Under the pieces are notes generated by a model that saw nothing but the letters and a program-made list of their open reading frames with translations, had not been told where the DNA came from and made no database searches. A DNA stretch of 64,000 nt from Candidatus Bathyarchaeota archaeon A05DMB-2 (GTDB lineage: Archaea; Thermoproteota; Bathyarchaeia; Bathyarchaeales; Bathycorpusculaceae): NCBI GenBank assembly GCA_018475625.1, contig JAAKEZ010000012.1:1-64000 (forward strand). Reading direction: 5' to 3'. Below, one piece after another: positions 1-42,414 of this stretch. Positions within the stretch are counted from its first letter, which is position 1. Each line of letters begins with the position of its first letter. The translations under genes and the position numbers were made by a program.

Positions 1-49
1 AAGTCGTAACAAGGTGGCCGTAGGGGAACCTGCGGCCGGATCACCTCCT
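1..49 (+). rRNA. 16S ribosomal RNA, 3' end (partial)
   Basis: The first bases match the universally conserved 3' end of small-subunit rRNA: AAGTCGTAACAAGG at 1-14 and the terminal GGATCACCTCCT at 38-49, which carries the anti-Shine-Dalgarno sequence. The rest of the gene lies before the window. No spacer tRNA and no 23S gene follow; the next gene is leuS on the opposite strand. Confidence 0.97.
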
Positions 50-330
50 AAGTAAGCGCTGCTTGCTGGAGGGGCAAGGAAGCGGCATTAACGTCAAGGC
101 CCAGACACATGCGAATTTTTGTAATTTGGGTCTTTTTGTGCGCGGTTAAGTGCTATTTGTTGCGGTGAATTGCTGGTAAGACTTGCAGAACTGACCTGAC
201 ATTTTGTCTATAGTCTTGCTGCAAATAATTTTGGGGCCTCTGGTGGCTGCCCATCCTCTAAAGAGAAACGTCTATCTCAAACTCGAGGAGTTGTATTCTT
301 TGTCCGTTTTAATCTGAAAAATGTGGATGT
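50..330 (+). other. 16S rRNA 3' flank, no gene
   Basis: This stretch separates 16S rRNA from the convergent leuS. It holds two T-rich runs near 116-121 and 131-138 that could act as an archaeal oligo-T terminator for the rRNA transcript. I see no tRNA, no start of 23S rRNA and no convincing ORF. The first 40 bases are G-rich and may form part of a 16S processing stem whose other half lies before the window. Confidence 0.5.
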
Positions 331-41359: not shown

Positions 41360-41529
41360 TTTGTTATAGACATATAAAACTTTCTCAAACCTAAAACCTA
41401 CCATTCCTGCATGCAATAGACACCTAACAAGTTTTAGGCAGAACGCAGATGGTAACCAACAGCACCCCAAAGTCATAGTTTACAAAACACAAAAAATGGT
41501 GGGGCTGGCCGGATTTGAACCGACGACCT

Positions 41530-41559
41530 TTACCCGGAAACAGTCGTTTGGCCGTTCCT
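41530..41559 (-). other. tRNA-Trp intron 2 in the variable loop
   Basis: 30 nt must be removed between the anticodon stem and T stem to give a normal 5-nt variable loop AGGTC. It can fold as a small hairpin with AAAC/GTTT around GACT and an outer CGG/CCG. A strict 4-bp bulge-helix-bulge is not obvious, so exact splice points cannot be set. Confidence 0.6.
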
Positions 41560-41565
41560 ACGGGT

Positions 41566-41631
41566 TTCTCTAAGACCGCTCCAGAATTTCGTCATTCCTC
41601 TGGGCGAGGTCAGCAAACCCGTGCTTGCTTT
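41566..41631 (-). ncRNA. tRNA-Trp intron 1, candidate box C/D methylation guide
   Basis: In archaea the tRNA-Trp intron at 37/38 often acts as a guide for 2'-O-methylation of nucleotides 34 and 39. Here ACGGGTTTG sits immediately before a box D'-like CTGA. It pairs with tRNA nucleotides 35-43, placing C39 at the fifth base before the box, the known rule. A box C'-like ATGACGA (41595-41589) is followed by TCTGGAGC, complementary to the anticodon loop (31-38). No clear final CTGA box D and no canonical box C are seen, so the second guide is less certain. Confidence 0.5.
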
Positions 41632-41820
41632 CTGGAGCCCGTCGTCATGCCTGCCTAGACTACAGCCCCATTTTAGGCATAGAGCAAATATTGAGCCCGC
41701 AAACATAAAAACGTAACCCCCTCTCAGGCAAGGCATAAGCAAATAAGTCCAGAACTTGAATACACCAAAGCATGAACGCCCACGTGGATTTTCATAATCT
41801 ATTTCGAGAAAACTGCAGGT

Positions 41821-42290: not shown

Positions 42291-42414
42291 GGGTTTGCCG
42301 GCCAAAGGGCGCGGGTCCCACCTGATCCCATTCCGAACTCAGAAGTTAAACCGTGCTCCGTTCCCAGTTGTAGTGTGGTCTTCGGCCACGTGAACCTGGG
42401 AAAGCTGGCAGCCC
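42291..42414 (+). rRNA. 5S ribosomal RNA
   Basis: About 124 nt with the 5S hallmarks: GGGCGCGGGTCCCACCTGATCCC, TTCCGAACTCAGAAGTTAAAC, and TGTGGTCTTCGGCCACGTGAACCTGGGAAAG, with the terminal helix formed between GGGTTTGCCGG (42291 on) and CTGGCAGCCC (42405-42414). It is alone: no 16S or 23S is adjacent, and a TATA-like GGTTAATGA about 30 bp upstream suggests its own promoter. The DUF1512 gene follows on the same strand. Confidence 0.93.

Follow-up and report, generated by a model that had tools for sequence, protein, structure and literature searches.

How can a tRNA be made from a gene in which two introns leave a middle exon of only 6 nt, and in which that exon supplies one strand of the anticodon stem? 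The question is raised by a tRNA-Trp(CCA) gene in the stretch of DNA analyzed here (the window, 64,000 nt of contig JAAKEZ010000012.1 from Candidatus Bathyarchaeota archaeon A05DMB-2). We computed its structure, its splice motifs, their conservation, covariation, and mutual exclusion, and the enzyme genes of the host. The scheme that best accounts for the data, to which we assign a probability of about 0.82, is that two BHB introns would be removed in the order intron 2, then intron 1, by an (alpha-beta)2 endonuclease and RtcB, with a putative box C/D guide lying inside intron 1.

The whole precursor occupies positions 41497..41669 of the minus strand, on which all features given below also lie, and its CCA end is encoded. 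Exon 1 (41632..41669; 38 nt) holds positions 1-37 and ends in CUCCAG (anticodon CCA, G37). It is followed by intron 1 (41566..41631; 66 nt) at position 37/38, by exon 2 (41560..41565), whose 6 nt ACCCGU are A38, C39, C40, C41, G42, and U43, by intron 2 (41530..41559; 30 nt) at position 43/44, and by exon 3 (41497..41529; 33 nt), which comprises the variable region AGGUC, the T arm, the acceptor strand, A73, and CCA. A run of six U's directly 3' of CCA (41491..41496), seen by eye only, is a possible transcription terminator. The elements of tRNA-Trp are all recognizable (acceptor GGGGCUG/CAGCCCC, T arm GUCGG UUCAAAU CCGGC, and anticodon loop CUCCAG^A, where the caret marks the cut). Run without its intron option, ARAGORN found no tRNA in the precursor and none in either half-spliced form; once both introns were removed, it called a tRNA-Trp(cca) of 77 nt. 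A covariance model, proposed as a check when the gene was first described, likewise recognized it, the Rfam tRNA model matching positions 41500-41669 at 37.5 bits, above its cut-off.

These results bear out the first-pass annotation, which had read the gene from its sequence as a tRNA-Trp with two introns and a tiny middle exon. The size given there, 6-9 nt, reflected an ambiguity that arises from an AGG direct repeat at both junctions, and exon 2 comes to 6 nt when both strands are cut, by rule, behind the second base of the bulge. The splice product is fixed independently, because relatives that lack intron 2 (L173-L176 among others) read CCCGT-AGGTC at the junction. That annotation had the structure; it did not have this intronless junction, the box C/D guide, or the relatives whose tRNA-Trp genes carry three or four introns, which are described below. 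On sequence grounds, the gene is a tRNA-Trp with two putatively protein-spliced (BHB) introns, which would be cut and joined in cells.

We defined a BHB as a 4-bp central helix flanked by two 3-nt bulges and cut after the second bulge base, and we found this arrangement at both introns, with 3-nt bulges at either site. For intron 1 in the window, the outer helix is ACGGG/CCCGU, the central helix is CUCC/AGAG with 3 of 4 pairs, and the bulges are AG^A and AA^A. Across 78 distinct sequences of intron 1, the central helix is CUCC/NGAG-like with 3-4 pairs, and the bulges are in every case AGA and either AAA or, rarely, AUA. For intron 2, the central helix is ACCC/GGGU with 4 of 4 pairs, where A38-C41 pair with the intron strand GGGU (41532..41535), the bulges are GU^A and AA^A, and the inner helix is GGAA/UUCC; in the window no adjoining outer helix was seen, which makes the motif one of the relaxed type. 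The CCC/GGG pairing, the GUA 5' bulge, and the A[AGT]A 3' bulge are kept in 61/61 distinct sequences of intron 2, all of which have at least 3 central pairs, and A38 pairs with U in 35 of them. An alternative motif for intron 2, CCCG/CGGG with bulges UAG and UAA, was rejected; ACCC/GGGU is preferred because the alternative would make the variable loop two bases too long and because ACCC/GGGU fits all relatives. Furthermore, the first four pairs of the inner helix of intron 2 change on both sides (GC, AU, CG, and UA), which is covariation: on average, 3.93 of 4 pairs form, against 3.26 (maximum, 3.48) when the 3' strands were dealt out among the sequences in 2,000 shuffles, a null that ignores relatedness.

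Next, we looked into how the two motifs (BHB1 at intron 1 and BHB2 at intron 2) relate to each other. C39-C41 are used twice, in the outer helix of BHB1, which is the anticodon stem, and in the central helix of BHB2, so that the two motifs exclude each other because both need the CCC of exon 2. With each motif forced on the full precursor and energies computed for naked RNA at 37°C, the BHB2 fold was better than the BHB1 fold in 52/52 genes, by a mean of 4.5 kcal/mol. When intron 2 was taken out, BHB1 lay 0.2 kcal/mol above the optimum in the window and cost 3.8 kcal/mol on average over the 52 genes. In the window, the probability of the anticodon stem was 1.00 in the mature tRNA, 0.57 once intron 2 had been taken out, and 0.00 both in the precursor and when only intron 1 was missing. 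Over the 52 genes, it averaged about 0 in the full precursor and only 0.14 without intron 2; the latter mean is low because guide sequences in intron 1 compete, sequestering both sides of the anticodon arm. RNP binding or action in trans may thus be needed for BHB1.

On this basis, we infer from the folding models that intron 2 would leave first and intron 1 second. Intron 2 would form its relaxed BHB through A38-C41 and the GGGU at its 3' end, the (alpha-beta)2 endonuclease would cut it out, and RtcB would join the ends. With intron 2 gone, CCCGU would be free to pair with ACGGG (positions 27-31) as the outer helix of BHB1, and the rebuilt anticodon stem would allow intron 1 to be removed in a second step. 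As an archaeal tRNA-Trp box C/D intron, intron 1 would direct 2'-O-methylation of C39 before or around its own removal. It has been stated for archaea that, where introns lie close together, one may have to be removed before the next BHB can form (PMC8450103). The earlier argument that a split anticodon stem calls for ordered splicing thus gains the mutual exclusion and the preference for BHB2 in 52/52 genes, and the order itself is what the folding leads us to expect. Support for "intron 2 first" is good where it is taken to constrain BHB1 and weaker where it is taken to describe the whole pathway.

The order might instead be free, or might begin with intron 1, with the anticodon stem and BHB2 exchanging readily. 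BHB2 still forms in silico after intron 1 is removed (mean probability, 0.79; window, 1.00), and a relaxed BHB1 lacking its outer helix is conceivable because (alpha-beta)2 enzymes accept relaxed motifs. However, the outer helix of BHB1 requires CCCGU, the mean stem probability in the 52 full precursors is near zero, and in none of them does BHB1 reach the stability of BHB2; we therefore regard a free order as unlikely.

The ordered scheme calls for an endonuclease that accepts a relaxed BHB, and a search of the genome for its subunits, as suggested in the first-pass annotation together with its prediction of broad specificity, recovered two splicing endonuclease paralogs, on contigs C102 and C8. 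The alpha paralog aligns over its length with Aeropyrum pernix 3P1Z_B, with the catalytic His in EHAPY (HAP(Y/F)) and a Lys at the K44 position; this lysine of the crenarchaea-specific loop (CSL) is needed for the broad specificity of the A. pernix enzyme (PMC6379350). The beta paralog aligns best with the alpha4 enzyme of Methanocaldococcus jannaschii (1A79) and has Thr in place of the catalytic His. The genome thus encodes what defines an (alpha-beta)2 enzyme, namely, two paralogs of which one is catalytic with the CSL lysine and one is without the full triad, and a gene for RtcB is present as well. From these genes, alpha plus beta is predicted to be a broad-specificity endonuclease capable of relaxed BHB cleavage. 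It shares with the A. pernix type (PDB 3P1Z) the CSL and Lys44 equivalent in alpha and a beta subunit whose His is replaced, whereas in sequence the host beta comes closest to 1A79 of M. jannaschii.

We then asked how widely the arrangement occurs. Archaeal matches to the double-intron pattern fell in records named Bathyarchaeota, Bathyarchaeia, or wider names that cover them, which suits the earlier placement of multi-intron tRNAs in some TACK archaea, the host itself being a member of the Bathyarchaeia; bacterial matches to the DNA pattern were, from their record titles, taken as chance. Both introns are shared by the genome from the same genus and by most of the genomes examined from the host's family. 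Among 85 tRNA-Trp genes parsed in detail, intron 2 is present in 69 and absent in 16. Intron 2 was probably gained or lost more than once, because some genomes of the host's own family are without it (L208, L211, L214, L215, L222, and L233). The extra 30 nt do form a hairpin in the variable region, as they would if they were a long variable arm that is retained, but their 3' end pairs with C39-C41 in every relative, so that a retained arm and the anticodon stem would be rivals for the same bases, their bulge sequences are almost fixed, and relatives without them have a normal 5-nt AGGUC, which leaves this reading next to no credit.

A decayed pseudogene, with a working tRNA-Trp hidden in the missing few percent of a host assembly that is 96.4% complete in 110 contigs, is hardly credible, since every tRNA element is intact, CCA is encoded, identity within the genus is 99%, and introns and splice motifs are kept over dozens of genomes, large contigs included. 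Another intact tRNA-Trp gene, which would have counted against the two-intron gene, was not found among the 43 tRNA matches of the host's 96.4%-complete genome. Chance or assembly error was rejected because a genome of the same genus, at 99% identity, and dozens of other Bathyarchaeia have both introns again. Two program calls were also set aside: an ARAGORN "tRNA-Trp" in L036 of the host's own genome is a tRNA-Arg(CCG) with a misplaced intron, and an Rfam tmRNA match at the coordinates of our gene scored 22.3 bits, below the cut-off of 47, and covered the acceptor and T arm only. Elsewhere, two assemblies each carry two tRNA-Trp genes, G013 on contigs C15 and C35 (L234 and L052) and G181 on C15 and C18 (L242 and L243); one of the latter pair is of another family's type and is possibly contamination.

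Other RNA genes of the host were noted along the way. A tRNA with a CAU anticodon (L022:1-110, G000:C90) repeats the design of intron 2 of tRNA-Trp: its variable region is interrupted at about 45/46 by an intron of 22 nt that ends in CCAG, and this CCAG pairs with the CUGG strand of the anticodon stem. A second tRNA (L039, G000:C37:26855-26949), named Ser(GGA) by ARAGORN and probably Gly(UCC), is seemingly interrupted near 25/26. The 3' end of a 16S rRNA gene lies at the edge of the window (1-51), a separate 5S gene lies at 42294-42413, and no 23S rRNA match was obtained in the window at Rfam cut-offs; the rRNA genes look unlinked.

Archaeal tRNA-Trp introns nest a box C/D RNA and have a median length of 65 nt (PMC4090602), and the one in Haloferax guides modification of C34 and U39 (PMC7994747). 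In intron 1, the conserved element ACGGGUUU (41615..41622) is a candidate C39 guide, complementary to AA^ACCCGU, that is, to the end of intron 1 and exon 2; this 8-nt complementarity is found in 70/85 genes and makes a third claim on exon 2. A candidate box D' (CUGA) was placed by hand count at 41610..41613, and by the same count the fifth base upstream of it pairs with C39; its form is CGGA in 42 and CTGA in 31 of 78 distinct introns (CKGA). A candidate box C' (AUGACGA) follows at 41589..41595, with ATGA[AC]GA in 75/78 distinct introns. The element UUCUGGAGC (41578..41586), whose complement GCUCCAGAA spans the 5' splice site, is a candidate C34 guide, with 8-10 nt of complementarity to the anticodon side in 85/85 genes. 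Antisense elements to C34 and to position 39 are thus both present; for C34, agreement with the fifth-base rule depends on accepting a degenerate D box, the box after this guide being GUCU in the window. No recognizable copy of the terminal box C (RUGAUGA) was seen in intron 1. A gene for fibrillarin is present in the genome. Intron 1 is a probable guide for 2'-O-methylation of C39; for C34 the claim is weaker, because the terminal box C is unrecognizable and the box after the guide is GUCU. The intron shares with those of Haloferax volcanii and Pyrococcus (sR50) the 37/38 site, a length of about 65 nt (here, 66 nt), and antisense elements to C34 and 39 (PMC4090602, PMC7994747). In contrast to them, its target at 39 is C rather than U, D' is often CGGA, the terminal box C is unrecognizable, and a second intron 6 nt downstream competes for the same target.

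Taken further, CCCGU may act as a pairing switch, which the C/D guide, BHB2, and the anticodon stem (BHB1) would occupy one after another, so that methylation and both splicing steps would follow an enforced sequence. In relatives this would have grown to four introns, and no tRNA gene known so far would be more interrupted. We put this forward tentatively, as a possibility short of an even chance.

Four-intron tRNA-Trp genes, with introns in the D loop and at 28/29, 37/38, and 43/44, were found in fifteen searched genomes (G038, G044, G048, G050, G054, G057, G101, G102, G103, G105, G115, G117, G118, G182, and G183; loci L126, L188, L193-L197, L200, L202, L203, L181, L182, L187, L244, L245, and L073). 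Their exons measure 17, 12, 9, 6, and 33 nt, and each of the 21 parsed loci, some of them duplicates of the same contig, yielded tRNA-Trp when spliced in silico. The motif of the D-loop intron is CUAG/CUAG with CC^A and AA^A (cut set by hand), and that of the 28/29 intron is GACG/CGUU with AC^A and AA^G. One such gene lies on a contig of Bathyarchaeum tardum M17C-73-01 (L126). A different tRNA-Trp, in L062 (G022:C33) and L112, combines the introns at 37/38 and 43/44 with one more near 25/26.

The published maximum is three introns per archaeal tRNA gene (PMC8450103, PMC4033280). The phrase "four introns" in combination with archaeal tRNA was not found among the matches listed, and coverage of the literature was incomplete, so that priority is not established. 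The multi-intron tRNAs of Thermoproteales (Pyrobaculum and Thermofilum) have in common with ours several BHB introns per gene, at 37/38 and at other, noncanonical positions, whereas here the lineage is Bathyarchaeia, C39-C41 of a 6-nt exon are used by both BHBs, and some relatives have four introns. That archaeal tRNAs can have several introns, that these can be removed in order, and that the tRNA-Trp intron can hold a C/D RNA was known before. New are the 6-nt exon used by both motifs, the wide occurrence of this exon in Bathyarchaeia, and the tRNA-Trp genes with four introns in 15 relatives.

Standard tRNA finders can overlook or misname multi-intron genes of this sort. The four-intron relatives, which include the named species Bathyarchaeum tardum, exceed the published maximum of three. 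The shared 6-nt exon offers a clean, testable case of a splicing order enforced by competing base pairs and, possibly, of guided methylation coupled to splicing. Moreover, tRNA-Trp is apparently single copy in this organism, so that UGG would be unreadable unless the splicing problem is solved.
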